Source of the DNA: Nitrosomonadales bacterium | GTDB taxonomy: Bacteria > Pseudomonadota > Gammaproteobacteria > Burkholderiales > Gallionellaceae | Reading direction: 5' to 3' | Length of the DNA: 64,000 nt | Assembly (NCBI GenBank): GCA_016235045.1 | Contig: JACRME010000033.1 | Coordinates: 124,001-188,000, forward strand | Shown: in pieces, positions 2,267 through 29,192 of the stretch | Position numbering within the stretch: position 1 is the first letter of the stretch | Layout: each line of letters begins with the position of its first letter | Made by a program: the position numbers and the translations under genes | The notes under the pieces: generated by a model | What the model was told of the DNA's origin: nothing | Seen by the model: the letters and a program-made list of their open reading frames with translations, nothing else | Databases searched by the model: none

Positions 2267-3898
2267 TCAAATGCATGGTCCGTGCGCCAGCGGTGTTACC
2301 AGGCTCAGATCTGCGATATGCGTGTTGGCAGTTGCAACAAAAGGACTAAGCGGATACGCCAGCACGAATGCCTGCATCGCAGAAAGCTCAAGGGTGCATT
2401 GCTTCGAACCGTCATAGGTGAAAGCAGAATGGTAAGCCGCATTGTCTGCCAGTATGCCGGCTGGGGCGAACGCAATAGCCGCGGCATATGCCGTACGTGC
2501 AGCAGGATAATCCAGCAGAATATGGTGTGACCGCCCGACATAGTATTGCCCATCATCGAAGTAACTCGACGTCGGATAGGATGTCAGGAAAATGTTCAAT
2601 TCTGCAATCGCCGTCAGATAATTGGCCTCGTCATAGTAAGTCTTGCCTATCCGGTAATAGGCATTGTCTACGTAGATGCTGAGAGGGAAATTCGTATACA
2701 GCTTGACATATTCTGCGCGCGCCAAAGCGTAATCTGCGGGCAGCTTGGAGATTGATGCAGTACCGTTGATGGAACGTGCCTTGTAGTATTGCGCAGAAGC
2801 GGCGCTGGTTGAAGTCGCATAATTCGCCAACACATATTCGAATTGTGCTATCGCGGCAACATAGTTGGCTTCATCAAAATAGGTCAGGCCGATCTGGTAA
2901 TAAGCATTGTCGACGAAGATGCTGAGAGGGTAATTCGTATACAGCTTGACATATTCTGTGCGCGCCAAGGCGTAATCTGCGGGCAGCTTGGAGACTGATG
3001 CAGTACCGTTGACGGAACGTGCTTTGTAATACTGCGCTGAATCGGCGATGGAAGAAGCTGCATAATTTGTCAGCACATAATCGAATTGTGCAATCGCGGC
3101 AACAAAGTTGGCTTCATCATAGTGGGTCTTGCCGATCTGGTAATAAGTATTGTCGACGAAGATGCTGAGAGGGTAGTTCGTATACAGTTTGACGTATTCG
3201 GCACGAGCCAGGACAAAGTCACCAGGGGCGTCCAATGGGGCCGATATCTGCTCATTCAACGCCTTCCCGTGCAGGGAGCGCGCAAAATAGTATTGCGCGC
3301 CGTCAGCCACAGTCGATGCTGGATAGCTTGTGACAACTGCCTGCAATAATGGAATGGCTTCGACATATCTATGCTCGTCAAAATATGACAAGCCGATCTG
3401 ATAATTGCAGTCAGGTACCAGGGTGGTACCGGGGTAGTTCGTGATTACCGACTGATAGATTGCTCTGGCATCAGAAAAAATGGTTGCTGCATTCGCAAGA
3501 TTTCCGGCGGCAAATTGTAAATTGGCCAACTGCTGCCGACTTTTCCCTTTCCAGAGCAATGCATCGTCAGCAAAGGAGTTGGAGGGGTAGGCACTCAATA
3601 CGATATCGAATTTCGCAATTGCCCCGGTGAAATCATTCAGATGATAGTTGCACTTTCCGAGGTAAAAATACGCTGAACCGACAAGGCTGCTGTTCGGATA
3701 TTGAGCTATCAATGATTCAAATGAGGTGGCAGCACTTGCGTAGGAAGTGGCGTTGTAAGCCGCATAACCTGTATTAAACAAATCCTGGTCGGGAGTGCCG
3801 CCTCCCGCTGCTCCTCCAGGACTCCCGCCTCCACCACCACAACCGCTCAGTATTGCCAGGAAATATGCCAAGAATACAACCGATAATATTTTTTTCAT
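2267..3898 (-). CDS. TPR-repeat lipoprotein with near-identical 81-residue tandem units
   Basis: 543 residues. The N-terminus is a lipoprotein signal with lipobox LSGC followed by a run of five glycines. The rest is TPR-like helical repeats of the YbgF/BamD style (motifs such as YYQIGKTHYDEANFVAAIAQF). The middle holds at least two near-identical 81-residue units plus more divergent ones, repeated at the DNA level with a 243-bp period, so copy number has changed recently. It is probably an outer-membrane or periplasmic protein-binding scaffold. It lies 87 bp upstream of the 7TM transglutaminase-like gene on the same strand and may be cotranscribed with it. No enzymatic motif is visible. Confidence 0.8.
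   Translation of the reverse strand: MKKILSVVFLAYFLAILSGCGGGGGSPGGAAGGGTPDQDLFNTGYAAYNATSYASAATSFESLIAQYPNSSLVGSAYFYLGKCNYHLNDFTGAIAKFDIVLSAYPSNSFADDALLWKGKSRQQLANLQFAAGNLANAATIFSDARAIYQSVITNYPGTTLVPDCNYQIGLSYFDEHRYVEAIPLLQAVVTSYPASTVADGAQYYFARSLHGKALNEQISAPLDAPGDFVLARAEYVKLYTNYPLSIFVDNTYYQIGKTHYDEANFVAAIAQFDYVLTNYAASSIADSAQYYKARSVNGTASVSKLPADYALARTEYVKLYTNYPLSIFVDNAYYQIGLTYFDEANYVAAIAQFEYVLANYATSTSAASAQYYKARSINGTASISKLPADYALARAEYVKLYTNFPLSIYVDNAYYRIGKTYYDEANYLTAIAELNIFLTSYPTSSYFDDGQYYVGRSHHILLDYPAARTAYAAAIAFAPAGILADNAAYHSAFTYDGSKQCTLELSAMQAFVLAYPLSPFVATANTHIADLSLVTPLAHGPCI
2611..3240 (-). repeat. 243-bp in-frame tandem repeat inside the TPR lipoprotein gene
   Basis: The string GATGCTGAGAGGG recurs at 2675, 2918 and 3161, exactly 243 bp (81 codons) apart. 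The first two full units are nearly identical; the third diverges after about 70 bp, and a partial copy precedes the first. This is a recent internal duplication of a two-TPR module. Confidence 0.9.
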
Positions 3899-4411
3899 TT
3901 GGCAGAATCCCCGTTAACCAAGTTCCAGATTGCCAACTATTCCGATCAGGGTTTTCGATATCGACTACCCTTTGCAGTATTCCGTTTCACTTCAGTGTTG
4001 GCACGGCAGAAAATGAAAACAATCGCACGATTCAAAGCAACCATGCTCACCCTGTCCTCCGTTGACGCAAATTCCAGCCGAAGAACACCTGGCTCCACAC
4101 ATTGAAAATCATTCTAATCACCCTTATGTCAAAAATATGTGAAAGTATTGTCAAATTAACGGTAAGGCTATTTTTTCCGATTCAATTTCCAGTCAATCAA
4201 CACAATCTCAATTGTGCGTTATCAGCTTCATGCCGAGGCAATCTGGATGCGGGCAGGCGTTATGGAGAGATTAAGAAGACTTTGTCTATATTTTGTCTAT
4301 ATATAGGTAATGGACATTTGGATTTGCACTTATTGGGAAATCCCGATTTAAGTCCACGCCAACTGGTTCAACCTGGCGGATGAAGCATGCGGAGCCACTT
4401 CTGTATGACAC
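3899..4411. other. gene-free AT-rich stretch
   Basis: About 510 bases with no coding frame I would support. It contains the 5' region of the minus-strand TPR lipoprotein. Near 4278-4306 there is a directly repeated TTTGTCTATAT ending in TATATAGGTAATGG, weakly like the TAGG...GGCA element described elsewhere in this window. Nothing else is recognisable. Confidence 0.6.
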
Positions 4412-17189: not shown

Positions 17190-18230
17190 ATGCCGGAGAC
17201 GCGCAGTATAAATCAAAACATTACGCCCAAGCTGATGCCGGATTTCCGCAATTTGGGAACGGTATTGCGCATTGTGCTGCTGGCCAACGGAATCGCACTG
17301 CTTGGCGCAGTGGCGCAAGCCTCCTCGCCCACTGCTTTGCAAAACAGCGTGCTGCAGGGCTCTGTGCTATTGCAACCGGTGCTGTTGACCAGTCTGCTGC
17401 TGCTTTACGCGCTTAACCCGGCATTTTCCAGGGTGTCCTACTGGCAGGGCGCACTTGTCGCGGCGGCGATTGTGGCGCTGATCACCGTGGTGTTCGACAT
17501 GATAAGCGGCGCGCTGCTTTTCTTAACCGTCGATACCGGCCTGTTCCACTATGTTCGCCATGCGCTGGTGGCGATGGCCATTGCCTCGATATTGCTGGTG
17601 TACTTCAGGTTGCGCATCCAGGCGCTTTCCCCGGCAAAACAGGAGGCCAGGCTGCAAGCCCTGCAGGCGCGCATCCGGCCGCATTTCCTGTTCAACACCA
17701 TCAACGCGGTGCTCAGCATCGTGCGCGCCGATCCCAGGCGTGCCGAGGCTGCGCTGGAAGACATGGCGGACCTGTTTCGCATGGCGATGGCCGATCCGCA
17801 CGAACTGGTCGAGTTGGGCAAGGAAGTGGCGCTTGCGCGACAATATCTGGAACTTGAAGCGCTGCGCCTGGGCGAACGGCTCCAGGTTCGCTGGGATACG
17901 CAGAACATGCCGCCGGATGCGCTCATTCCGCCGCTGATCCTGCAACCGCTGCTGGAGAATGCGGTGTATCACGGCATCGAGCCGTTGCCGGAAGGCGGGT
18001 TGGTCGAAGTGAAGGTATATCTGGATGGCGACGAATTGCACCTGAAAGTGATCAATCCCGCGCATGATCGTACCCAGCCGCGCACCGATGGCAATAAAAT
18101 GGCGCTTTCGAACATCCGGGAAAGGCTGGCCTTGCTATTCGATGTCGAAGCGCAGTACCAGGTGGAGAACGATGCGAAAAACTACCAGGTTCACATCCTT
18201 ATTCCCTACGTGAAGGGGCAGGCAGCATGA
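17190..18230 (+). CDS. LytS/AlgZ-type sensor histidine kinase
   Basis: 346 residues. Four hydrophobic segments (about 25-150) precede a His_kinase domain with [19 protein letters not shown] (phosphoacceptor His about residue 169) and a compact ATPase domain ([16 protein letters not shown]). This is the AlgZ/FimS class. It overlaps the downstream LytTR regulator by 4 bp, so the two are a cognate pair. AAAGG lies just before ATG 17190; ATG 17235 (MPDFRNLG, the usual family start) is the alternative. Confidence 0.88.
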
Positions 18231-18991
18231 ACGATACGATTACATTGCCGCTCACCGTATTCATCGTCGACGACGAAGCGCCCGCGCGCAACCGGCTCAA
18301 GGAGTTGCTGACCGATTGCTCCGCCCAGTTCCCCCTGCAAATGCTGGGCGAGGCAGGCAACGGGCAGGAGGCGCTGGACAAGCTCGCCGAGACGCCGGCC
18401 GAGGTCGTGCTGATGGATATACGCATGCCGCAAATGGACGGTATCGAACTGGCGCGCCACCTCAACAAGCTCGATCACCCTCCAGTCATCATCTTCACCA
18501 CCGCCTACGATGCCTATGCCATCCAGGCCTTCGAACAGCATGCGATCGACTACCTGCTCAAACCGATCCGTCTCGGGCGCCTGTTCGACGCGCTTTCGCG
18601 CGCGCGCGATGCCGTGCCGATCCGCACCGAAGTGCTGCGGGAACTGACTCCCGAGCCACGCAGCAATCTTTCCACCCATGAGCGCGGGAAAGTGCTGCTG
18701 ATCCCGATTGAACAAGTGCTTTACCTGCGGGCAGAATTGAAATACGTTACTGTGCGCACCCTGGAGCGCGAATACCTCATCGAAGAATCGCTCACCGCCC
18801 TGGAAAAAGAATATGCTGCACGGTTTGTGCGCATCCATCGCAACTGCCTGGTAGCGAGAAACGCCATTGCGGGGTTCGAAAAAGGCGGCGAAGAGGGCGA
18901 AAGCGGATGGCTGATGAAATTGAAAGGGTTGCAGGACAAGCTTCCGATCAGCCGGAGACAGTTATCCATTGTTAAGGAATACGGGAAATAA
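18227..18991 (+). CDS. LytTR-family response regulator (AlgR-like)
   Basis: 254 residues: receiver domain (VFIVDDEAPARNRLKELL; phosphoacceptor Asp in VVLMDIRMPQMDG about residue 64) and a C-terminal LytTR DNA-binding domain (about 150-250, RFVRIHRNCLVARNAI). AlgR-type regulators bind direct repeats and control exopolysaccharide, pili or virulence genes. Partner of the preceding kinase. Only 3 bp separate it from the next response regulator, so two two-component systems probably share one transcript. Confidence 0.92.
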   Translation: MNDTITLPLTVFIVDDEAPARNRLKELLTDCSAQFPLQMLGEAGNGQEALDKLAETPAEVVLMDIRMPQMDGIELARHLNKLDHPPVIIFTTAYDAYAIQAFEQHAIDYLLKPIRLGRLFDALSRARDAVPIRTEVLRELTPEPRSNLSTHERGKVLLIPIEQVLYLRAELKYVTVRTLEREYLIEESLTALEKEYAARFVRIHRNCLVARNAIAGFEKGGEEGESGWLMKLKGLQDKLPISRRQLSIVKEYGK

Positions 18992-18994
18992 GCC

Positions 18995-19684
18995 ATGCGT
19001 GTACTGATTATTGAAGACAACCGGGATCTTGCTTCCAACATGTTCGATTTTCTGGAAGCGAAGGGGCATGTGGTGGATGCGGCGGGCGACGGCATCACCG
19101 GCATGCATCTGGCGCTGGTCAACCAATACGATGCCATCGTGCTGGATTTGACCCTGCCGGGAATGGACGGCATCACGCTCTGCCGCAAGCTGCGCGAAGA
19201 GGGCGGCAAGGACACGCCCATCCTGATGATCACGGCGCGCGATTCGCTGGACGACAAGATTGCCGGACTGGAAGCGGGCGCGGACGATTACCTGGTCAAG
19301 CCCGCCGAACTGCGCGAGATCGAGTTGCGCTTGCGCGTGCTGCTGCGCCGCAGCGGCGAGCATACGCAAAAACAGAAAACGATGGCGGTAGAAGACCTCA
19401 GCCTCGATCCCAGCACCTGCTCGGTAAGGCGCGGCGACAAGGCGATCGAATTGCCGCCGATTCCCTACAAGATACTCGAAACCCTGATGACGCGTTCGCC
19501 GCAAGTGGTCAACCGCGAAGATATCGAACATACGGTGTGGGGCGAAGGGCGGCCGGACAGCGATTCGCTGCGGGCGCATGTGCATCTGCTCCGCGATCTC
19601 ATCGACAAGCCTTTCCCGCGGAAACTGCTGCGCACGATGCGCGGCTTCGGATACCAACTGGTCAGCCCGGATGATCCGCACTAG
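18995..19684 (+). CDS. OmpR/PhoB-family response regulator (QseB/PmrA-like)
   Basis: 229 residues: receiver with Asp in IVLDLTLPGMDG (about 51) and Lys in DDYLVKPAELREIE (about 103), then a winged-helix DNA-binding domain (about 130-225, ending TMRGFGYQLV). Regulators of this class bind direct half-sites spaced 11 bp. Three promoters at 21065, 21348 and 25974 show exactly such repeats and lie within 7 kb downstream, making this the obvious candidate regulator. It overlaps its kinase gene by 14 bp. Confidence 0.93.
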   Translation: MRVLIIEDNRDLASNMFDFLEAKGHVVDAAGDGITGMHLALVNQYDAIVLDLTLPGMDGITLCRKLREEGGKDTPILMITARDSLDDKIAGLEAGADDYLVKPAELREIELRLRVLLRRSGEHTQKQKTMAVEDLSLDPSTCSVRRGDKAIELPPIPYKILETLMTRSPQVVNREDIEHTVWGEGRPDSDSLRAHVHLLRDLIDKPFPRKLLRTMRGFGYQLVSPDDPH

Positions 19685-20966
19685 CAGTCTGCGGTATCGC
19701 GTCGCTTTCTACTACGCGCTGTTCGGTGCGGGACTCAGCATTTTTCTTTCCACCGGCGTGTACCTGACCATGCAGGCCATCGGGCATCGCCTCATGGATC
19801 ATGTACTGGTGGGGGAATTGTTCGAACATGCCAGCGAGCCGGTATTCACGTCGCCGAATACCGCGTCGATCAGGGGCTATATTCTTTCGGCTGCGCAAAC
19901 CAGCGCGGATCTTCCAGCCGAGATCAGGAATCTGCCGCCGGGAACACACAACGTGAAAATCGGGCAGATCGACTACCACACGCTGGTTTCGGACGTGGGC
20001 GACGCGCGCTATTTCATGCTGTTCAATACGGAAAGCCAGCACCTGCAGGAAAAGGAGTTCTTCAACTACGTGGTGTTCTTCGCCCTGTTCATGATCGTCA
20101 GTTCCTCCATCGGCGGGGTATTGCTGGCGAGCCGGGTGACGCGATCGGTCACCCGCCTGGCGGAACAGGTCGGACAGGCGAAGCCGGGCGACACCGAGTT
20201 GACCCTGATCGAATTGACCGGCAACGACGAAGTCGGGGATCTGGCGCGGGCCTTCGATCGCTACCTCAGCCGCCTGAGAAAATTCGTCGAGCGGGAAAAT
20301 TATTTCACGGCGGACGTGAGCCATGAATTGCGCACGCCGCTGGCCATCATGCTGGGCACGGTGGAAGTGCTGGAGCAGGACGAAACACTGTCGGCAAAAC
20401 AAAAAGAGCGGCTCAGGCGCATCCGGCGCGCCGCACAAGACATGATAGACCTCACGTCAGCCTTGTTATTGATGGCGCGCGAACACCAGTTCGCCGCCGA
20501 CGAGCAACCCAGCCGCGTCGCCGAGGTGGCGCTTGCGTGTGTCGAAAAACACCGTCACCTGATCGGCGACCGTCCCATCCGCATGGACGTGGAGTTGAAG
20601 GCCGATCCGAGTTTGATCGTCGAGCGCCCGTTGCTTGAGATCGTGATCGGCAACCTGATCCGCAATGCCCTGTTCAATACCAAGTCCGGTGTCGTCCTGC
20701 TTCGCCTCGAAGCGACGCGGCTCATCGTCAAGGATACCGGCGTTGGAATGCGTCCGGAGGAACTGGCGCGTGCGCTCGAACGCTATTACAAAGGCGCGAC
20801 GAGTGCCGGGGCGGGCGTGGGCCTGTCGCTGGTGAAACGAATCTGCGACCGCTACGGCTGGAGCATATCCCTCGAAAGCCAGGAAGGTCAGGGCACTACG
20901 GCAGAGATCGATTTCTCCGAGCGCAGGCGCGCGGGTCGTGTTGCCGACGCCGACTCGGATCAGTAA
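19671..20966 (+). CDS. sensor histidine kinase paired with the OmpR-type regulator
   Basis: 431 residues from ATG 19671, inside the end of the regulator gene. Two transmembrane helices (about 12-34 and 130-152) flank a periplasmic sensor of about 95 residues with no recognised domain. HAMP-like linker, HisKA (FTADVSHELRTPLAIM, His about 217) and HATPase (GNLIRNALFNT, DTGVGM, GAGVGLSLVK) follow. Signal unknown; its position directly before the cyc2 cluster suggests a signal linked to iron or redox state (inference). Confidence 0.9.
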   Translation: MIRTSSLRYRVAFYYALFGAGLSIFLSTGVYLTMQAIGHRLMDHVLVGELFEHASEPVFTSPNTASIRGYILSAAQTSADLPAEIRNLPPGTHNVKIGQIDYHTLVSDVGDARYFMLFNTESQHLQEKEFFNYVVFFALFMIVSSSIGGVLLASRVTRSVTRLAEQVGQAKPGDTELTLIELTGNDEVGDLARAFDRYLSRLRKFVERENYFTADVSHELRTPLAIMLGTVEVLEQDETLSAKQKERLRRIRRAAQDMIDLTSALLLMAREHQFAADEQPSRVAEVALACVEKHRHLIGDRPIRMDVELKADPSLIVERPLLEIVIGNLIRNALFNTKSGVVLLRLEATRLIVKDTGVGMRPEELARALERYYKGATSAGAGVGLSLVKRICDRYGWSISLESQEGQGTTAEIDFSERRRAGRVADADSDQ

Positions 20967-21064
20967 CTGAGTACCAGTATCGGTCGCATTGGTTTACAGG
21001 CAGCAGCACTGGTCATCGCTATTTCCATTTTGCCTGTTGCAGAAAACGCAAATTATCCCCCTTC

Positions 21065-21108
21065 TTTACGTTCATTTAATTTGTCCTTAACAAGGTTATT
21101 GCTAACAT
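21065..21108 (+). promoter_or_regulatory. promoter P1: 11-bp-spaced repeats plus -10
   Basis: TTTAC (21065), TTAAT (21076) and TTAAC (21087) are each 11 bp apart; TAACAT (-10) starts at 21103, 16 bp after the last repeat start. The geometry is identical to P2 and P3. It drives the leader and short remnant at 21216. Confidence 0.7.
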
Positions 21109-21215
21109 TCTTATCAGCTTGTGCAAACAAAGCCTGTTTTTGAATCGTTGCGCAAGCGAAGCATTTGGACGGGAGAGTTCGAATCCTGCCGGGGAACCGC
21201 AAGATGAGAACTGCA

Positions 21216-21305
21216 ATGAAGATAATTGTTCTGTATCCGGTTGGCGTATTTGCAATAACTGCTTTTGCATTAAAGGTCATCTCCTTTTCCTTTGGAGAAA
21301 GCTGA
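21216..21305 (+). pseudogene. decayed duplicate of the cyc2 5' end
   Basis: ATG 21216 opens a 29-codon frame beginning MKIIVLYPVGVFAITAFAL. This aligns with the Cyc2 signal peptide MKKIVLSLASVLVATAFAP encoded at 21513; the DNA is similar over about 60 bp. Upstream, P1 and its leader parallel P2 and its leader, including a GGGAGAG about 68 nt after the -10. No CXXCH follows. It reads as a tandem duplicate that lost its body; a short expressed peptide is possible but unsupported. Confidence 0.55.
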
Positions 21306-21347
21306 TTGAGACGAATACTGTTGCAATAAACGCAAATTCACATTTTC

Positions 21348-21391
21348 TTGACGTTGCGTTGACAAGACCTTAACGAACCAATTGCTAGGAT
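21348..21391 (+). promoter_or_regulatory. promoter P2 of cyc2: 11-bp-spaced repeats plus -10
   Basis: TTGAC at 21348, TTGAC at 21359 and TTAAC at 21370 (period 11); TAGGAT at 21386, 16 bp after the last repeat start. The repeats occupy the -35 region, as expected for activation by an OmpR-family regulator. cyc2 starts 127 bp downstream of the -10. Confidence 0.75.
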
Positions 21392-21512
21392 TGCGCCGCA
21401 CTTGTGCAAGAAGCCAGAAATAACCAATGCGCAGGCGTGTGAATTTTTGCAGTCGGGAGAGTATTCAGCTCAATTAATTGTTCAAGTACTTTAGATATAG
21501 GGGAAATACAAA

Positions 21513-22730
21513 ATGAAGAAAATCGTACTGTCACTTGCAAGCGTGTTGGTCGCAACCGCATTTGCACCAGAAGCTTCCGCCGTTCCGGCATTCGCCCGGC
21601 AGCAGGGCAAGGCCTGCTCCACCTGCCACTTCCAGCACTATCCGGCGCTGAACGACTACGGCCGCAGCTTCAAGGCCGCCGGTTATACCGAGATGGGCAA
21701 GCAGGGCACCATCAAGGGTGAAGGGCTGTCCCTTCCCGAAGTGCTGAATTCCAGCCTGTTCTTCAAGTTCCGTTATGTGGACACCAATGGCACCGACGCA
21801 TCCGGAGTGCCGACAGCCGCCAGCGGCCAATGGCAGATTCCAGACGAGTTCGCGCTGCTAATGGGCGGCCGCGTTTCCGAAAATGCCGGCTTCCTGCTCG
21901 AAGCCCAGTTGATCGACAATACCGCACCCGTGCTCGCCGGTTTCAAGATGCCGATCATGTTCCCGGTTGGCGAAGGCGAGATGAAGGTTGGCGCGGTGCC
22001 GTTCTCCACCGACGGTCTGGGCGCATCCTACGGCTTCGAACTGTTGAATACCGGCGCTGTGCGTAACGTGCGTGTCTCCGAGAACCGCAACGAGACTTCC
22101 GCCCAGCAGTACATCGGTACCGCCCAAGGGGCGCAAGGCGTGGCTTTCGTGGTTGCCGATCCGATGTTCTTCGTCAACGTCTCCCGTTATGCCAACGGCA
22201 GCGCCACGGATCAGAAGATGAGCCTGACCTACCTGCGTGCGGCCGTTACCCCCACCATTGGTGAATGGGATATGGGCTTCGGCGTCCAGTCCTGGTCCGG
22301 CAATCAGGCCGATTCGACCGGTCTTGCCGGCAACGACTTCAAGGCGACCGCCATCGATGCACAGGCGCAAGGCGCGGTTGGCGGCATGCCGCTGGGCCTG
22401 TACTTCACCTATGCCACCGCACCGAAGTCCGGCGCGACGGCCAATACTTTCAACACCGGCACCAATGCCGACAAGAAAGCCACCACGATCACGGCCGAAC
22501 TTGGCGTGCTTCCAGGAACGGCAACCGTTTTGGTCGGTTACCGCAATGCCGATACCGGTGCTGCGACCAACGCCAAGGACAATGCTGTGACGCTGGGCGG
22601 TACTTACCAGTTTGCCCAGAACATCCAGTTGCAGTTGACCTACTCCAAACGCGACAAGAATGGCACCACCGGCCGTTACGCGGGTGGTGGCGATACGCAG
22701 ACCCTGTTCATGTTGTCGGCAGGTCTGTAA
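21513..22730 (+). CDS. cyc2: Cyc2-type outer-membrane cytochrome c-porin (iron oxidase)
   Basis: 405 residues. Signal peptide (1-23, ending EASA), then a short heme module with VPAFARQQGKACSTCHFQHY; the single CXXCH is at 35-39, followed by PALNDYGRSFKAAGYT. The remaining ~340 residues are alternating amphipathic strands of a beta-barrel. This one-heme-plus-porin design and the FARQ...CHFQH...LN.YGRSFK.GYT pattern define Cyc2, which oxidises Fe(II) at the cell surface and passes electrons inward. Three diheme cytochromes and a tetraheme CymA-like protein follow. It has its own regulated promoter (P2) and terminator. GGGGAAAT precedes the ATG. I am confident of the family; the in vivo substrate is inferred. 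Confidence 0.9.
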   Translation: MKKIVLSLASVLVATAFAPEASAVPAFARQQGKACSTCHFQHYPALNDYGRSFKAAGYTEMGKQGTIKGEGLSLPEVLNSSLFFKFRYVDTNGTDASGVPTAASGQWQIPDEFALLMGGRVSENAGFLLEAQLIDNTAPVLAGFKMPIMFPVGEGEMKVGAVPFSTDGLGASYGFELLNTGAVRNVRVSENRNETSAQQYIGTAQGAQGVAFVVADPMFFVNVSRYANGSATDQKMSLTYLRAAVTPTIGEWDMGFGVQSWSGNQADSTGLAGNDFKATAIDAQAQGAVGGMPLGLYFTYATAPKSGATANTFNTGTNADKKATTITAELGVLPGTATVLVGYRNADTGAATNAKDNAVTLGGTYQFAQNIQLQLTYSKRDKNGTTGRYAGGGDTQTLFMLSAGL

Positions 22731-22748
22731 AGTTAGTGTGACGTAAAC

Positions 22749-22776
22749 GGGAAGGCCGCAAGGCCTTCCCTTTTTT
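22749..22776 (+). terminator. Rho-independent terminator after cyc2
   Basis: The stem GGGAAGGCC / GGCCTTCCC with a GCAA tetraloop is followed by six T. It separates cyc2 from the periplasmic cytochromes and would make cyc2 mRNA more abundant than readthrough. A TACAAT at 22792 may start a second transcript. Confidence 0.9.
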
Positions 22777-22826
22777 AGCTTTCGTGGCGGGTACAATGCG
22801 TCACGGAATGCATGGGGAGGATCACC

Positions 22827-23612
22827 ATGAAGTATAAAAATAAATATATAAGGAATTTTAATGGCCTGCTGATGAGCGCAATGGCTGCGCTCGTCGGCAT
22901 GCTGTTTGTGTCGGCGTCTATCCACGCCGAGTCCATGCCTGCGAGCGGAGCGGCAGCAACCCCCGAGACGCCTGCGGCGGTGGCGGCAACTCCCGAAACA
23001 GCGCCTGTAGCTCCGGCACCCGAAGCTTCTGCAGCGCCGGCGCCGGAAGTCGCCGCAGCGCCTTCCGGTCCGCAGCCGCTGGAAGAGCGCCTGCAACTGT
23101 GCGCCGGTTGCCACAATCCGGACGGCAACAGCGTCATTCCGGAGAATCCGAAGCTGGCCGGCCTGAATGTCAAATATCTCAATCGCCAACTGAAGGACTT
23201 CAAGAGCGGCGATCGCACAAGTCCGATCATGAGCAGCATCATTCCGATGGTCGACGAGTCCGAGTTCAAGGCGCTGGCGCAGTATTTCAGCGAACAGAAA
23301 CGCTCGGACGGGGCGACGGATAAACCCGACCTGGCCGCGCAGGGCAAGCAGATATTTGACGAAGGTATCATCGGGAGTGCGGTGCCTGCCTGTTCCGGTT
23401 GCCACAACGAAGATGGCAGCGGCACCGACAAGTATCCGCGTCTGAACGGCCAGAATTCGGTCTACGTCGTCAACCAATTGACGAATTTCAAGAGCGGCGA
23501 ACGCAAGAACGACCCGAAAGCGGTTATGCAGACGGTGGCCAAGCGCATGACGGAGCAGGAAATCGCCGCCGTGGCCGAGTATGTGACTACCTTGAAGGAA
23601 GCCCAACAATGA
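22827..23612 (+). CDS. diheme c-type cytochrome with a Pro/Ala-rich spacer
   Basis: 261 residues. An N-terminal hydrophobic segment (about 12-34; cleavage after SIHA possible, otherwise a membrane anchor) is followed by about 45 residues rich in Pro and Ala (36-83). Two cytochrome c domains of the c4 type follow, with CAGCH (92-96) and CSGCH (189-193). The spacer could let the heme domains reach across the periplasm. It is the likely electron acceptor from Cyc2, in the role of Cyc1 in acidophilic iron oxidisers (inference). GGGGAGG lies upstream of ATG 22827. It overlaps the next gene by 4 bp. Confidence 0.88.
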   Translation: MKYKNKYIRNFNGLLMSAMAALVGMLFVSASIHAESMPASGAAATPETPAAVAATPETAPVAPAPEASAAPAPEVAAAPSGPQPLEERLQLCAGCHNPDGNSVIPENPKLAGLNVKYLNRQLKDFKSGDRTSPIMSSIIPMVDESEFKALAQYFSEQKRSDGATDKPDLAAQGKQIFDEGIIGSAVPACSGCHNEDGSGTDKYPRLNGQNSVYVVNQLTNFKSGERKNDPKAVMQTVAKRMTEQEIAAVAEYVTTLKEAQQ

Positions 23613-24331
23613 AAACTATTCTCTCTATGTGTGTAGCGCTGTTGTTACCTTTGCAGGCAACCGTGGCGCAAGCGGAAGACGCCTACACGCCCAAGGTCTA
23701 CGGCAAAAAGGGTTACGTCTGGGACGAGATGACACCCGAGCGTGTCGAGGTTCTGAAAATGACCGGAGACCCGGTAAAGGGCAAGGAAGCCTTCCGCGGT
23801 TGCCGTGGTTGCCACAAGGCCGACGCGGCGGGCGTGCGTGAAGGGGTCTATCCGCGTCTGAGCGGCCAACACGCCAGTGTGCTGATCAAGCAGATCACCG
23901 AAATCCGCGCGGGTATCCGCCTCAACCCGAAAATGCTGCCGTTCGTCGAGGATCCGGCCATTGCGGTGGATGAAATCGCCGATATCGCGGCCTACCTGAA
24001 TTCCGTGGAATCCCTGCGCGAAAACGGCAAGGGTCCGGACGACATGTCAGCACGCGGCAAGAAGCTCTATACCGACAACAAGTGCTTCACCTGCCACGGC
24101 AAGAACGGCGAAGGGGATGCGGCCAAGGCGTTCCCGGTGCTCGCGGCCCAGCACTACGGCTACCTGATGCGCGAAATGAAGCTGATCGAGACCGGGGCGC
24201 GCGGCAACTCGCATCCAGACATGGTCAAGGCCATCGCCAAATTCTCGCAAAGCGACCGCGAGGCGGTGTCCGACTATCTGTCGCGCCTGCCCGATTACCG
24301 GACGCTGAATGCCGTGCCGGCAACGAAGTAA
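23609..24331 (+). CDS. periplasmic diheme cytochrome c
   Basis: 240 residues. Signal peptide cleaved after VAQA (residue 22). Two heme domains: CRGCH (65-69) with a probable Met ligand in LNPKMLPF, and CFTCH (159-163). Similar in size to c4-type cytochromes, with an extra N-terminal extension (YTPKVYGKKGYVWDEMTPER). Start codon ATG overlaps the stop of the preceding cytochrome, so the two are made together. Likely a soluble shuttle between outer- and inner-membrane cytochromes. Confidence 0.88.
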   Translation: MKTILSMCVALLLPLQATVAQAEDAYTPKVYGKKGYVWDEMTPERVEVLKMTGDPVKGKEAFRGCRGCHKADAAGVREGVYPRLSGQHASVLIKQITEIRAGIRLNPKMLPFVEDPAIAVDEIADIAAYLNSVESLRENGKGPDDMSARGKKLYTDNKCFTCHGKNGEGDAAKAFPVLAAQHYGYLMREMKLIETGARGNSHPDMVKAIAKFSQSDREAVSDYLSRLPDYRTLNAVPATK

Positions 24332-24367
24332 ACCGGCGGCGTATCGCCGGACAATGTAGTTTGAAGT

Positions 24368-24397
24368 ATCCGGCAACGGTGGAGGCCGTTGCCGGAT
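24368..24397 (+). promoter_or_regulatory. perfect 12-bp hairpin between cytochrome genes
   Basis: ATCCGGCAACGG / CCGTTGCCGGAT with a 6-nt loop and no T run after it. It could be an mRNA-processing or stability hairpin that sets different levels for the flanking cytochrome genes. Confidence 0.6.
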
Positions 24398-24424
24398 GTG
24401 ACGAAAAATAAAAAGGGGAATGTG

Positions 24425-25051
24425 ATGTCCAAGGAACGCAACAACTATGCTGCGCTGGCGTGCTCGGCGCTGCTCGCCGTGTCTGTGTCGACGGCCGCCT
24501 TTGCCGGCGATGTCAACAAGCTCGTGGAAGTGTGCTCATCCTGCCACGGCAAGGACGGAAACAGCGCAGAAGCGGACATCCCCAACATTGCCAGCTATTC
24601 CGTGGAATATGTCACCAAAAGCCTGACGCGATACCAGAAGAAAGAACGTCCGTGCATCGAAACTGAAATCCGCTCGGGCAGCAAGAAGGGCTCGAAATCG
24701 GACATGTGCAAAATTGCCGCCGGGCTGAGCGAAAGCGACATCGCGCAACTCGGGGAATTTTTTGCCGGACAGACCTTTGTGCGCACGGCGCAGGCGACCG
24801 ATGCCGAAATGGTAAAAAAGGGCAAATCGATCCACAACAAGAAGTGTTTTACCTGCCATGCCGAATCGGGCAGCGAGCCCAGCGACCATTCCGGCATTCT
24901 GGCCGGGCAAAAAATGGGCTATCTCAAGCAGGAAATCAAGTTCTTCAAAGAGGGCAAGCGCCCCATTTCAAAGAAAATGAAACCGAAACTGGAGTCTCTG
25001 GACGATGCGGAGATTGAAGCGGTCATTCAATACTACGGAAGCATCCAGTAA
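24425..25051 (+). CDS. periplasmic diheme cytochrome c
   Basis: 208 residues. Signal peptide cleaved after AAFA (27). CSSCH (37-41) and CFTCH (141-145). Two further cysteines (about 77 and 95) in the first domain could form a disulfide, a feature not shared by the two upstream cytochromes. AGGGGAA lies six bases before ATG 24425. Third diheme cytochrome in the cluster, so it is either a parallel shuttle or the partner of the tetraheme protein. Confidence 0.87.
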   Translation: MSKERNNYAALACSALLAVSVSTAAFAGDVNKLVEVCSSCHGKDGNSAEADIPNIASYSVEYVTKSLTRYQKKERPCIETEIRSGSKKGSKSDMCKIAAGLSESDIAQLGEFFAGQTFVRTAQATDAEMVKKGKSIHNKKCFTCHAESGSEPSDHSGILAGQKMGYLKQEIKFFKEGKRPISKKMKPKLESLDDAEIEAVIQYYGSIQ

Positions 25052-25071
25052 TCCTGCCGAATGCCGGAAAT

Positions 25072-25100
25072 CCGGGAAACGCCTGCTTTCCCGGCATTTC
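25072..25100 (+). terminator. hairpin after the third cytochrome (possible weak terminator)
   Basis: CCGGGAAA / TTTCCCGG with a 7-nt loop (25072-25094), followed by CATTTCTG. The T content is poor, so readthrough into the tetraheme gene is likely. Confidence 0.4.
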
Positions 25101-25187
25101 TGCTGTTAAGCCGCAAAGGGTGGCAGTGCGCAAGTTGAAGCTGTCAATGCCCTGCTTTCAAGGCAGTGCGGTGTAAAGGACGCCAAA

Positions 25188-25778
25188 ATGAATATGCAAC
25201 AAAAAATCAAAAATGGGTGGCATGCACTGCGCAGCCCGACGGCCCGCTTTTCCGTGATTTTTCTGCTGGGTTGGGGTTTCGTCGCCGGCATTATTTTCTG
25301 GGGCGGTTTCAATACCGGGATGGAGGCAACCAACAAGCTCGAGTTTTGTATTTCCTGCCATGAAATGCGGGATACCGTCTATGAGGAATACAAGACTTCC
25401 ATTCACTACGCCAATCGCACTGGTGTGCGCGCAGTGTGTTCGGACTGCCATGTGCCCAGGGACTGGGTCCACAAAATCAAACGCAAGATCCAGGCGAGCG
25501 GCGAATTGTGGAGCAAAGTGACCGGCACTATCGATACCAGGGAAAAATTCGAGGCCAGGCGGCTGGAGTTGGCGCAGCACGAATGGGCGCGCATGAAGGC
25601 ATCGGATTCGCGCGAATGCCGCAACTGCCACAGCTACGAGGGCATGAATGCGGAGATGCAGGACGAGACGGCGAAGGAAAAGCATATGCAGGCAACCAAG
25701 CCCGGCTCCGGCAAGACCTGCATCGACTGCCACAAAGGCATCACCCACGAGTTGCCGGAAGGCATGGAAGGTTTGTAA
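25188..25778 (+). CDS. NapC/NirT-family tetraheme cytochrome (CymA/ImoA-like)
   Basis: 196 residues. One N-terminal membrane helix (about 21-43) anchors a periplasmic domain with four CXXCH sites: CISCH (54), CSDCH (84), CRNCH (144) and CIDCH (178). This is the NapC/NrfH/CymA quinol-cytochrome family. In iron oxidisers a CymA homologue is proposed to deliver electrons from periplasmic cytochromes into the quinone pool for reverse electron flow to NADH. Being last in a cyc2-diheme-diheme-diheme-tetraheme order, it completes a path from cell surface to inner membrane. Family assignment firm; direction of electron flow inferred. Confidence 0.9.
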   Translation: MNMQQKIKNGWHALRSPTARFSVIFLLGWGFVAGIIFWGGFNTGMEATNKLEFCISCHEMRDTVYEEYKTSIHYANRTGVRAVCSDCHVPRDWVHKIKRKIQASGELWSKVTGTIDTREKFEARRLELAQHEWARMKASDSRECRNCHSYEGMNAEMQDETAKEKHMQATKPGSGKTCIDCHKGITHELPEGMEGL

Positions 25779-25809
25779 TCCGGTTTCATCCAGGGAATCG
25801 CCGGTCAAG

Positions 25810-25880
25810 TCGTCACACCGGCGAAGACCGGTGTCCAGTCGATTAAAACGCCTGATTCCGGCTTCGCCGGAATGACGTGT
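25810..25880. repeat. dispersed palindromic repeat (CCGGCG...CCGG type)
   Basis: Two adjacent palindromes (CACCGGCGAAGACCGGTG and ATTCCGGCTTCGCCGGAAT) ending GACG. The same family recurs at 33521, 39104 and 39380 between other genes. Confidence 0.75.
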
Positions 25881-25973
25881 CAGGACTTGCCCGGTGTTTT
25901 CCCAAGTCGGCGCGGTGGAATCATCGCTTTGGCGCTGCGAAAAAAAGCCGAAAATGCAGCGAATCCCTTGTTC

Positions 25974-26028
25974 TTGACATTCATTTAACGTCGCGATGAC
26001 GTTCTCTTCACGCGCAGCTTGCTAGGAT
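25974..26028 (+). promoter_or_regulatory. promoter P3: four 11-bp-spaced repeats plus -10
   Basis: TTGAC (25974), TTAAC (25985), ATGAC (25996) and TTCAC (26007) are each 11 bp apart; TAGGAT starts at 26023, 16 bp after the last repeat. Same architecture as P1 and P2. It reads into the gap before ppc. Confidence 0.7.
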
Positions 26029-26423
26029 GCAAACACTTTCTGCAGATGTGTGTATACCAAACAATAACAAGGGAAGCAGTAAAGTCAGGGAGGAAGCAAT
26101 TCAGACGCCTGAGCCAGCCAAGACGGGACAGGCGTTCTGATGAATAAACACTACCATGCCGCGAGGGTGGGTTGCTGCAGGTTCTCGATCGCCTTAGTCC
26201 AGGGAGCTACAGGGGGTCGCAATGTGGGAGCCTGGGGTTGGCCCAAAATCACATCAATAAAGGCGAGTAGTGAAAAAATAGGGGAGACTTCGGTGCGCTG
26301 CGTAGCCAATCTGCGTATCGGATTGCGTGCCGCAGTCTCCCTCTTTATTTGCCCGCTTGCCTTGCGTGGTGCAACACAGTCCCTCGCTTGGCGCCGTCCC
26401 TCGGAAAATTCCCGCCGCAGTCT
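26029..26423 (+). other. P3 transcript region, no convincing gene
   Basis: A GGGAGG sits about 65 nt after the -10, as in the P1 and P2 leaders, followed by a bulged hairpin around 26101-26140. ATG 26140 opens a 95-codon frame whose distance from the -10 (117 nt) matches the P1 and P2 start codons (113 and 127 nt), but the product has no recognisable signal peptide or domain and runs to the ppc 3' end. A stem GGGAGACT...AGTCTCCC near 26280-26338 followed by TCTTTATTT could end a transcript. It may encode an RNA or a decayed gene. Confidence 0.4.
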
Positions 26424-29192
26424 TTAGCCGCTGTTCCGCAATCCGGTCGCGATACCGTTGATGGAAAGGTGGATTGCCCGTTTCACTTTCTCGTCGTTAT
26501 CCCCGGCGCGATGTCGCTGCAACAGCGCCACTTGCAAGTGGTTGAGCGGGTCGATATACGGCATGCGCGTGAGCAGGCTGCGCGCAAAAGCCGGGTTGTC
26601 CTGCAACAGGGCCGAGTTGCCGGTTACCTTGAGCAGCAATTCCACGCTGGCATTCCACTCGCCGTCGATCTCCCCGAAAATACGCTCGCGCAATTCAACA
26701 TCCCCGACCAGTTCGGCATAGCGCGAGGCGATACCCATATCGGTTTTGGAGAGCACCATTTCCATGTTGGACATGAGGCCGCGGAAAAAAGCCCAGTTCT
26801 TGTACATCGCCTGCAATTGGGCAAGCCCGTTCTGTCCTTCGCGCTCCAGGAACAGCTTTACCGCGCTGCCGTAACCGTACCAGCCCGGCAACAGAATGCG
26901 GTTCAGTCCCCAACTGAACACCCAGGGAATGGCGCGCAGGTCTTCGATGCGGTTCGACGGCTTGCGCGACGCCGGGCGGCTGCCGATATTCAATTCGGCA
27001 ATCTCGCGGATGGGCGTCGCGGCAAAGAAGAAATCGGTAAAGCCGGGCGTCTCATACACCAGCCGACGATAGGCGGCATAGGCATCACGGCTCAACTCGT
27101 CCATGATGCGGTGGTATTCGGGCATGGCGCTGTCCGCCCCGTGCCGGTGCAGCAGCGTCGCTTCCATGGTCGCGGCGATCAGCGTTTCCAGGTTGCGGCG
27201 GCCGACCTCGGGGTTGGAGTATTTGCTGGAAATGACTTCGCCCTGTTCGGTGATGCGGATCTGCCCGTTCACGCTGCCCGGCGGCTGCGCCAGAATCGCG
27301 TCGTAACTGGGGCCGCCGCCGCGGCCCACCGTTCCGCCGCGGCCGTGGAACAAACGCAGCTCGACTCCGTGCTGCTGGAATACTTTCACCAGTTCGAGTT
27401 CGGCCTTGTACAGTTCCCAGTTCGCGGTGAGATACCCGCCGTCCTTGTTGCTGTCGGAATAGCCCAGCATCACCTCCTGCGTGTTGCCGCGGCTGGCCAG
27501 CAGCTTGCGGTACCAATCCAGCGAAAACAGTTCGTCCATGATCCGGCTGCAACCGCGCAAATCCTCGATGGTCTCGAACAGGGGAATGATGTTGACGTGC
27601 AAGGCATCGCTTCCCTCGAGCAAGCCGACCTGCTGCAGCATCAGCGCAAGTTCCAGCAGGTCGCTGACGGCATCCGTTTTGGAAATGATATGGTTGGGCA
27701 AGGCGGCGTGCCCGAAGCGCCGGTGAATCGCCGCCGCAGCCAGCATGATGCGCAGTTCGCCTTGCGGGATGGCCGAGTAGCGTTCGATGTCCGTCATCAG
27801 CGTTTTGCCGGCCTGCAGGGTTTCGAGCAGCACCCGGCGTTTTGCCGCTTCGTCCAGACCTGCGTAATCCGCCATTACTGAACCGGGCGCAAGCAGCTCG
27901 CCCACCGTCTGCTCGATGACCGCGCTGTGCTGGCGCATGTCCAACGGCGTCAGGTGGAAGCCGAACACTTCAGCCGAGCGGCGCAGATTGGCCAGCCGAC
28001 CCGTTGCCACATGCAGCGCGCCATGCCGGCGCAGCGAATCGATCACGATGTCGAGATCGACCATGAATTCCTGCGGCGTGGCATAAGGCTGCTCGTTTGC
28101 GCCCAGCGGCGGCTGGTGCGCGATGCTGTGGCCGAACTGTTTCGCCGTGGCCGACAGGCGCGAATAGATCAGGTTGCACGCGCGGCGGTAAGGCTCGTCC
28201 GCGCGCACGGGATCCTTGTCCGGCGAGTTGTCGGAGAGTCTGCGCAATTCGCTGCTGACGTCAGCCAGGCGGTCCGTCAGGCTCAGGCTGCGGCTCAACA
28301 CGTAGACTTCCGCCAGATAGTGCTCGAAAGCCAGCGCCGACTGCTGCTGCAACGCATCCTGCATCACATCGTGGGTGACGAACGGATTGCCGTCGCGGTC
28401 GCCGCCGATCCAGCTGCCGATGCGCAGCAGCGGCGGAACGACGATACCCTTGCCGAAACGCGCCTCGAATTGTTTCTCCAGATTGGCGTAAATCTTCGGA
28501 ATCTCGACCAGAAAGGTGTAGCGGTAATACTCCAATCCGTTGTTGATCTCGTCGCGCACGGTCAGCTTGGCGGTGCGCAGCATGCGCGTCTGCCACAGGA
28601 TCAGCACGGAACGGCGCAGCGCCTCCTCGTTCTCCTCAAGCTCGTCCGGCGTCATGTCGATGCGGTCGCGCTCGGAAAGAAAGCGGGCGATGTAGAGCTG
28701 GCAGTCGAGAATGCTTTTGCGCTGCACCTCGGTCGGGTGCGCAGTCAGGACCGGCGACACCAGCGCGATGTTGAGGAACGATTGCAGCGTTTGTGCATCG
28801 ACCGGCTTCTGCTGCAACCGGTTCAGCGTCAGCGGCAGCGTACCGTCGGCAGGCGCATTGCCGACCTTGAGGCGGGCGCGGTGCAGCCGGTTGTGGTGCT
28901 GGTCTTCGGCGATGTTGGAAAGCTGGGAGAAATAGCTGAACGAGCGCACCACGGCCAGGGTATCGGCGGGTGAGAGCGCGTCCAGTATCTGTTCCAGCGC
29001 CTCGCCGTCGCGTTCGTCCTGCGTCTTGCGGAAACGGACGGCGGCGCGGCGCACGTTTTCGATCAACTGGAAATATTCCTCCCCTTCCTGTTCGAGCAGG
29101 GTGTCGCCGAGAATGCGGCCCAACAGCCGCACGTCGTTGAGCAACGGCAAGTCCCGGCTGGAAATATCGGAGGGAGAGGCGATCAAATTCAT
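26424..29192 (-). CDS. ppc: phosphoenolpyruvate carboxylase
   Basis: 922 residues. It carboxylates PEP to oxaloacetate, replenishing the TCA cycle. The catalytic His is in LTAHPTEVQRKS (about 150), and the second active-site region GYSDSNKDGGYLTANW and FHGRGGTVGRGG are intact, as is the C-terminal NSG-type end. ATG 29192 (MNLIASPS) gives the normal length; the open frame extends 23 codons further without conservation. Transcribed away from hemC across an 93-bp divergent gap. Confidence 0.96.
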   Translation of the reverse strand: MNLIASPSDISSRDLPLLNDVRLLGRILGDTLLEQEGEEYFQLIENVRRAAVRFRKTQDERDGEALEQILDALSPADTLAVVRSFSYFSQLSNIAEDQHHNRLHRARLKVGNAPADGTLPLTLNRLQQKPVDAQTLQSFLNIALVSPVLTAHPTEVQRKSILDCQLYIARFLSERDRIDMTPDELEENEEALRRSVLILWQTRMLRTAKLTVRDEINNGLEYYRYTFLVEIPKIYANLEKQFEARFGKGIVVPPLLRIGSWIGGDRDGNPFVTHDVMQDALQQQSALAFEHYLAEVYVLSRSLSLTDRLADVSSELRRLSDNSPDKDPVRADEPYRRACNLIYSRLSATAKQFGHSIAHQPPLGANEQPYATPQEFMVDLDIVIDSLRRHGALHVATGRLANLRRSAEVFGFHLTPLDMRQHSAVIEQTVGELLAPGSVMADYAGLDEAAKRRVLLETLQAGKTLMTDIERYSAIPQGELRIMLAAAAIHRRFGHAALPNHIISKTDAVSDLLELALMLQQVGLLEGSDALHVNIIPLFETIEDLRGCSRIMDELFSLDWYRKLLASRGNTQEVMLGYSDSNKDGGYLTANWELYKAELELVKVFQQHGVELRLFHGRGGTVGRGGGPSYDAILAQPPGSVNGQIRITEQGEVISSKYSNPEVGRRNLETLIAATMEATLLHRHGADSAMPEYHRIMDELSRDAYAAYRRLVYETPGFTDFFFAATPIREIAELNIGSRPASRKPSNRIEDLRAIPWVFSWGLNRILLPGWYGYGSAVKLFLEREGQNGLAQLQAMYKNWAFFRGLMSNMEMVLSKTDMGIASRYAELVGDVELRERIFGEIDGEWNASVELLLKVTGNSALLQDNPAFARSLLTRMPYIDPLNHLQVALLQRHRAGDNDEKVKRAIHLSINGIATGLRNSG

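Follow-up and report, generated by a model that had tools for sequence, protein, structure and literature searches.

The iron-oxidation gene cyc2 of a Gallionellaceae genome (Nitrosomonadales bacterium, contig JACRME010000033.1) lies in a 64,000-nucleotide stretch of DNA (positions 124,001 to 188,000, hereafter the window) together with a two-component system and three promoters of one design, P1, P2 and P3. The regulator gene (18995..19684, +) encodes a ColR-like response regulator of the OmpR family with Response_reg and Trans_reg_C domains (PF00072 and PF00486), proposed here as the activator of P1-P3, and the adjoining gene (19671..20966, +) encodes a ColS-like sensor kinase with HAMP, HisKA and HATPase_c domains. 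This is the domain make-up of an OmpR/PhoB-type response regulator with its cognate kinase, and the search thereby confirmed what a first-pass annotation of the window had supposed for the genes just upstream of P1. The open reading frame (ORF) at 21513..22730 (+), with a CXXCH motif near its N-terminus, is taken to be cyc2, encoding a fused cytochrome-porin iron oxidase, from that annotation, from its 41-76% identity to 23 named loci and from general knowledge of the family; the Cyc2 protein has no Pfam or NCBIfam match.

All three promoters combine an array of TTNAC-like half-sites with a -10 element. P1 (21065..21108, +) carries three half-sites, TTTAC, TTAAT and TTAAC, one of them off-consensus, and the -10 TAACAT at 21103; P2, the cyc2 promoter (21337..21391, +), which has orthologous promoters in relatives, carries TTCAC, TTGAC, TTGAC and TTAAC with TAGGAT at 21386; and P3, the promoter of a stand-alone RNA (25974..26028, +), carries TTGAC, TTAAC, ATGAC and TTCAC with TAGGAT at 26023. 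Both direct reading and scoring confirmed the architecture first described for these sites, in which the half-sites follow one another at a period of 11 bp throughout and the last begins 16 bp before the -10. The half-sites described for P2 also held, except that it begins at 21337, not 21348, and has one half-site more than had been noted, and the list of sites had missed a perfect fourth promoter, found by scanning, on the opposite strand (4111..4154, -; TTGAC, TTCAC and TTGAC with -10 TAGAAT), about 210 bp before the ORF of a tetratricopeptide-repeat lipoprotein (2267-3898, -). Array and -10 together score at least 15 of 16 at four places in the window, while none of 200 dinucleotide shuffles reached even 14; across periods of 9-13 and offsets of 12-20, matches in the window fell only at period 11 with offset 16 (four) and period 11 with offset 19 (one). 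In the whole genome, three exact TTNAC half-sites at period 11 occur at five places forming three clusters (P2, the window site at 4154 and C9:60062 on another contig), and the reversed pattern, searched as a control, gave no exact match; P1 and P3 carry one mismatch each and are therefore missed by the exact search. At C9:60062 (L164), TTNAC-like half-sites repeat five to six times at period 11, and neither a matching -10 nor a clear gene accompanies them.

Between 20900 and 26600 there is no sigma-70-like consensus promoter (mean 2.7 in shuffled sequence), and the last half-site therefore occupies the place of the -35; as in activator-type promoters, a consensus -35 is absent at the standard spacing. 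P1 and P2 align across an upstream element, the array, the -10, the leader and the first cyc2 codons, and behind P1 lies a remnant of the cyc2 signal-peptide start (21216..21305, +), 29 codons followed by a stop, in which MKIIVLYPVGVFAITAFALKVISFSFGES matches the beginning of Cyc2 by alignment and translation. P1 is therefore a decayed duplicate of the cyc2 unit, and because the two are homologous by tandem duplication, P1-P3 stand as sites but not as three independent promoters or three independent observations. Tandem cyc2 genes, in two or three copies, were also found in five fetched relatives (L091-L094 and L096).

The regulator belongs with ColR rather than with other members of the OmpR family. 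It is 50% identical to a Pseudomonas ColR-like protein (L247), so called from its neighbours, a PAP2 phosphatase, a methyltransferase and an InaA-type kinase, which are taken here to mark a ColR neighbourhood. Eight other OmpR-type regulators of the same genome reach at most 38% identity, and a ninth (L186) gave no match in tblastn. In a tree of 57 rows, 28 regulators with at least 74% identity to that of the window form one group (100/99) within a ColR-type clade (100/98) that leaves out the eight; the tree holds 28 of 29 regulator places, the partial copy of G143 being omitted, and carries a long-branch warning for the plasmid rows L247 and L248. Among 399 genomes drawn evenly from the order, identity above 74% occurs only in five members of the Gallionellaceae, and the other matches at E 1e-70 have 50-64% identity. 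NCBIfam subfamily names for the regulator (best model CztR/SilR/CopR) fell far under their curated cut-offs and were not used.

The operator points in the same direction. The ColR consensus drawn from seven DNase I footprints, (T/C)(T/C)NA(C/G)NN(T/C)TTTTT(C/G)AC, corresponds to TTNAC-N6-TTSAC (PMC2689224), and under the scoring rule used for the window these footprints score 75 of 84 at period 11, against no more than 56 at periods 9, 10, 12 and 13 and no more than 55 when shuffled 2000 times. The first-pass annotation had placed regulator and site in an OmpR/PhoB/PmrA class; the OmpR family stands, but the site is not of PhoB or PmrA type, having TTNAC-like half-sites at period 11 as in ColR. 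The system resembles ColRS of Pseudomonas putida in this operator, in a sensor region that can be aligned to a ColS-like protein, and in a PDSDSLR-H-H-LR region common to the regulator and the Pseudomonas ColR-like protein, but differs in its neighbours, in its proposed electron-transport targets, in the absence of the ColR T-tract (YTTTTT), since the P1-P3 spacers do not follow NNYTTT, and in the kinase. In ColS an ExxE motif that precedes the second membrane helix is needed for iron and zinc sensing (PMC4074579). Here it reads QHxxE-like, and in 25 kinases beside a regulator of at least 74% identity the first glutamate is absent from all 25 (H in 16, R in 5, L in 3 and N in 1) and the second is kept in 24; the metal specificity of the kinase may therefore differ from that of ColS. 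The Fe(II)-responsive BqsRS of Pseudomonas aeruginosa is likewise a two-component system with direct repeats at an 11-bp period, TTAAG-N6-TTAAG (PMC4682146), but, compared by operator, its half-sites end in G. At P1-P3, 10 of the 11 half-sites end in C, one in T and none in G. RegA is not known to be of the OmpR/ColR type. The RegB/RegA system for iron and sulfur oxidation in Acidithiobacillus ferrooxidans, itself an iron oxidiser, has also been proposed to act over iron-oxidation genes (PMC5506826), but it is another system in another organism.

Arrays and regulator occur together across the family. In a survey of 158 Gallionellaceae genomes, regulators at least 74% identical to that of the window were termed close, and exact three-half-site TTNAC patterns at period 11 were counted as clusters, 103 in total. 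Arrays were present in 25 of 27 genomes with a close regulator (66 clusters), in 7 of 13 with only a 50-61% relative (9 clusters) and in 25 of 118 without a regulator (28 clusters), the contrast of 25/27 with 25/118 giving a Fisher p of about 4e-12 with relatedness ignored. Thirty-four clusters are on the same strand as a regulator and no more than 12 kb downstream of it. Of the 21 close regulators with a downstream array, 15 have the first array beginning 1295-1370 bp past the end of the regulator gene, directly behind the kinase, and the fetched cassettes repeat the order regulator-kinase-array-cyc2 with an extended -10 that is mostly TTGCTAGNAT. Downstream of a regulator, 25 of 30 cyc2 copies have an array and -10 scoring 15 or 16 of 16, the five misses being L091 at 7958, L092 at 7823, L097 at 10184, L105 and L113. 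The first two of these are third cyc2 copies in which array and -10 are 24 bp apart, a spacing variant that occurs naturally.

The scored cyc2 promoters, drawn from part of the 114 genomes with cyc2, divide in the same way. At 30 loci, the eight promoters from regulator genomes score 16 in seven cases and 9 in one, against 8-11 for all 19 from genomes without it; the remaining three loci (L202, L211 and L215) had no frame starting at the expected base and were left unscored. Eight further cyc2 promoters from genomes without the regulator score 8-12. At the 23 named cyc2 loci, the array occurs only in the three with a close regulator, L006, L007 and L028 (G136, G152 and G144), the 20 others including bacteria from outside the family; as these three are already among the family genomes, the result restates that of the survey. 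In L028, Cyc2 is 41% and the kinase 48% identical to the window proteins, yet array and spacing are retained. Arrays were also sought at unlinked cyc2 copies in regulator genomes, where 0 of 10 tested fit.

Away from the regulator, close-regulator genomes hold 38 array clusters, 37 of them read together and the window site at 4154 read separately. Within 500 bp behind the array, an ORF for a haem-c protein starts at 16 of these 37 distal sites (by eye, in 9 related genomes); the 16 comprise small cytochromes c, a diheme cytochrome and one cyc2, with orthologues recounted in related genomes. Further arrays stand before one ccoN, two NiFe-hydrogenase small-subunit-like genes (L139 and L141, about 250 bp ahead, in two genomes) and two haemerythrin-like genes, again by eye. 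The 28 clusters in genomes without the regulator, scored by a script using ORFs of at least 80 aa instead of 60 aa, show no haem-c ORF (0/28) and no full -10 at +16 (0/28). The first-pass annotation had held that its regulon would fail if the pattern lay at random genes; that test, run in the relatives, gave a haem-c ORF at 16/37 sites versus 0/28. The test that carries most weight is confined to a single orthologous gene, the diheme cytochrome ahead of a CcoN-like gene. Three perfect half-sites precede it in 5 of 6 regulator genomes versus 0 of 22 without the regulator, a set in which three genomes have a 50-61% relative; all of the 30 loci but L298 and L300 were scored, and they come from 30 of the 43 genomes with the gene. 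Similarly, the best-matching small cytochrome c has an array upstream in 4 of 8 regulator genomes versus 0 of 22 (30 of 155 genomes with a match). The earlier reading of a regulon controlled by the neighbouring regulator is supported by this co-occurrence of arrays and regulator at cyc2 and at unlinked electron-transport genes, but the word "dedicated", as applied to iron oxidation, was too strong because arrays in two relatives precede NiFe-hydrogenase small-subunit-like genes and the two other exact sites of the window genome are not beside known iron genes.

P3 does not drive a protein operon. A conserved structured RNA (26144..26350, +), recognised by conservation and covariance and ending in an intrinsic terminator, lies downstream in place of a conserved ORF, and is also found in G139 and G152 at the same position before ppc; a shared MPRGW reading downstream of P3 is too short to count. 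Relatives of the RNA follow cyc2 at its 3' end in G123, G124, G142, G145, G149, G154 and G155, and a covariance model built from ten sequences scores above 70 bits in 14 genomes (loci L305-L318), of which four were additions. In seven of the 14 the RNA stands alone (the window genome, G000, with G139, G152, G134, G135, G128 and G151), and for six of these seven a four-half-site promoter 16 bp before the -10 scored 15/16, the promoter in G152 being taken from a reading of the fetched cassette and not from the scoring script. Five of the seven cyc2-linked RNAs were scored, and none has a P3-type promoter immediately before it. The stand-alone RNA is flanked by lytR and ppc in G134, G135, G128 and G151. 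Its array-bearing promoter in G135 is about 840 kb from the regulator on one contig, and G151 (73% complete) is the only one of the 14 RNA genomes without a detected regulator.

The RNA structure has 16 of 34 pairs changed on both sides, as high as in none of 500 shuffles; sliding the pairing left about half of it, with 3-10 two-sided pairs, and the model-fitted alignment gave 17 of 34. Folded as a single sequence, the RNA is modestly better than shuffles (z -2.5). An Rfam 15 covariance search of 20900-26600 gave no match up to E 1. Weak covariance matches (about 30-55 bits), often just behind cyc2, were taken as terminator-like, were not read singly and were not counted as the RNA. Small RNAs of the CpxQ type, under envelope regulators, may be derived from a 3' untranslated region or stand alone. 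The RNA described here resembles them in its two origins, the 3' end of an mRNA of the regulon or a regulated promoter of its own, but differs in that one family occupies both arrangements across related genomes and has no Rfam match. As a guess, it might act in trans on other mRNAs.

Judged from sequence, it is highly probable that a ColR-like regulator of the Gallionellaceae activates Fe(II)-to-oxygen electron transport and an RNA through one promoter design. The regulator at 18995-19684 would represent a Gallionellaceae branch of the ColR type that, once phosphorylated by its kinase, most likely binds in tandem, along a single helix face, to the direct repeats TTNAC-N6-TTNAC(-N6-TTNAC); with the final half-site in the place of the -35, it would recruit sigma-70 RNA polymerase to the extended -10, which reads TTGCTAGNAT in most promoters of the family. 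In its own genome the predicted targets are cyc2 (through P2 and the relic P1) and the stand-alone RNA behind P3, and the lipoprotein gene behind the 4154 (-) site is probably driven as well. In relatives, the regulon would take in most tandem cyc2 genes, the diheme-cytochrome/CcoN-like operon, small periplasmic cytochromes c and, in one genome, ccoN, which together would make up a path from Fe(II) to oxygen. The signal is probably iron or a related redox or envelope cue.

Several observations weigh against this proposed activation of electron transport by the ColR-like regulator. The genomes are related, so the counts are not independent events and the p-values are overstated. Ten cyc2 copies elsewhere or upstream in regulator genomes score 10-13 with incomplete architecture, several showing a TTGACA-type promoter by eye; the second cyc2 copy in G149 scores 9, and the third copies in the ES-1-like genome G124 and in G123 keep the array at a spacing of 24, not 16. 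At the distal sites, a full -10 at +16 accompanies only 6 of 37 arrays, and in 3 of the 16 haem-c cases (L147, L151 and L163) the array is too near the start codon for a -10. G092 has the regulator and a diheme gene without an array, half of the small cytochromes in regulator genomes (4/8) have none, and hydrogenase-like and haemerythrin-like genes do have arrays. The window genome has no exact array before any cytochrome gene except cyc2, so that the wider regulon rests on the relatives, and no diheme-cytochrome match at E 1e-25.

Published expression bears on the same question through Sideroxydans lithotrophicus ES-1 (G124), in which the 604-bp gap between the first two cyc2 genes is as published (PMC8788666). 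All three ES-1 copies, 37-50% identical to one another as proteins, carry the array, with a spacing of 16 at cyc2_1 and cyc2_2 and of 24 at cyc2_3. By quantitative reverse-transcription PCR, their reported expression over mtoA is 359-fold, 70-fold and 21-fold in that order, and the protein percentiles fall in the same order (PMC12016527). The order agrees with promoter spacing, but three points are no proof. A purely Fe(II)-driven switch is harder to reconcile with two reports: ES-1 cyc2_1 is high on thiosulfate too, without added iron, so that a signal of Fe(II) alone cannot account for every copy, and cyc2 of strain CL21 is high on lactate (PMC12442390). The ES-1 diheme gene, judged by its position, is probably Slit_2657, which is reported to be cbb3-associated and induced by FeCl2 (PMC8788666).

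The alternative that fares best is a general ColRS-type regulon for envelope and metal stress, in which cyc2 and the cytochromes are included as envelope proteins and do not form a programme dedicated to iron oxidation. ColRS of P. putida responds to excess Fe(III), Zn, Mn and Cd and controls membrane genes (PMC4074579, PMC2689224), and this reading would accommodate both the arrays before hydrogenase-like and haemerythrin-like genes and the window lipoprotein and the high ES-1 cyc2_1 without added iron. It is nevertheless unlikely, because haem-c genes at 16 of 37 sites and one ccoN, versus 0 of 28 at control sites, bias the sites to electron transport, and the kinase is without the ColS ExxE. 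That some other OmpR-family regulator binds the arrays, with the neighbour present by linkage only, is much less probable still: the genome has ten Trans_reg_C domains, and 50-61% ColR-like paralogues in relatives precede like arrays at other genes, so that the site is not unique to one regulator, but among the comparable regulators of the genome (eight of the nine others) the neighbour alone is ColR-like, by identity and by tree, and among scored promoters the full array at cyc2 and diheme genes is confined to regulator genomes. Finally, common ancestry alone, with tandem duplication spreading a promoter whose repeats are non-functional, fits the duplication of P2 in P1 and the tandem cyc2 genes of relatives but is extremely improbable, as half-sites, spacing and -10 are kept between the widely differing ES-1 cyc2 copies and the half-sites recur at unrelated genes with varied spacers.

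If Fe(II)-to-oxygen electron transport is activated as proposed, iron-oxidation energy metabolism acquires a testable regulator, with an operator code that can be read, a predicted regulon that connects Cyc2 with a terminal oxidase and an RNA lacking an Rfam match, and the decision for iron oxidation can be put to a direct test in ES-1, a cultured strain. A bolder and rather doubtful extension would have a metal sensor of ColR type, remodelled from ExxE to HxxE-like, serve as an energy-iron switch for the whole Fe(II)-to-oxygen chain, with the new RNA, from the cyc2 3' end or its own promoter, tuning envelope or respiratory genes in trans to the high load of outer-membrane oxidase. In the open-licence literature, a search that leaves out most subscription journals found no paper with both whole words ColR and cyc2. 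By their listings, the three papers joining cyc2, response regulators, promoters and iron oxidation belong to the acidophile field, and the single one joining cyc2, small RNA and iron oxidation concerns acid mine drainage. The main text of the Gallionellaceae pangenome paper, by word search, is without "two-component", "histidine kinase" and "promoter", and extracts from papers on neutrophilic iron oxidisers describe iron-responsive cyc2 copies with the regulator unnamed, those of ES-1 being "preceded by transcriptional regulators".

The cyc2 leader itself carries a hairpin with a CUUGUGC stem (21401..21435, +) that begins 9 nt after the P2 -10. Many cyc2-type transcripts have such a hairpin at the 5' end: of 35 leaders, 21 show a CUUGUGC-like element 9-10 nt past the -10, immediately behind the predicted start. 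In 18 leaders hand-picked among the 35, this element and a downstream GCGCAAG-like one pair as a 7-bp stem, mostly with one-sided changes and with one pair changed on both sides. The element is consistent with a predicted transcription start just behind the -10 and with a protected mRNA 5' end.

Four further cytochrome genes follow cyc2, all on the forward strand. Two encode di-haem c-type cytochromes with PF00034 and two CXXCH motifs each (22812..23612 and 23609..24331), a third a PdsA-like di-haem c-type cytochrome, its PdsA match lying below the NCBIfam cut-off (24425..25051), and the fourth a NapC/NirT-type tetrahaem cytochrome identified by domain and family search (25188..25778). Upstream, a LytS/LytR-type two-component pair (17190-18991) adjoins the ColR-like pair and is kept together with it in several relatives. 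Extra copies of the regulator (81-85%) occur without an adjoining kinase homologue in L104 (G154), L106 (G145) and L107 (G146), and by eye those in L104 and L106 stand ahead of genes for a six-haem cytochrome and of iron-sulfur/NrfD-like genes. At L117-L128 and L166-L168, more distant ColR-like regulators (50-61%) with a kinase often have TTNAC arrays behind them, and in several genomes these paralogues stand, by eye, before SulP-type transporters and OmpA-like lipoproteins, not cyc2.

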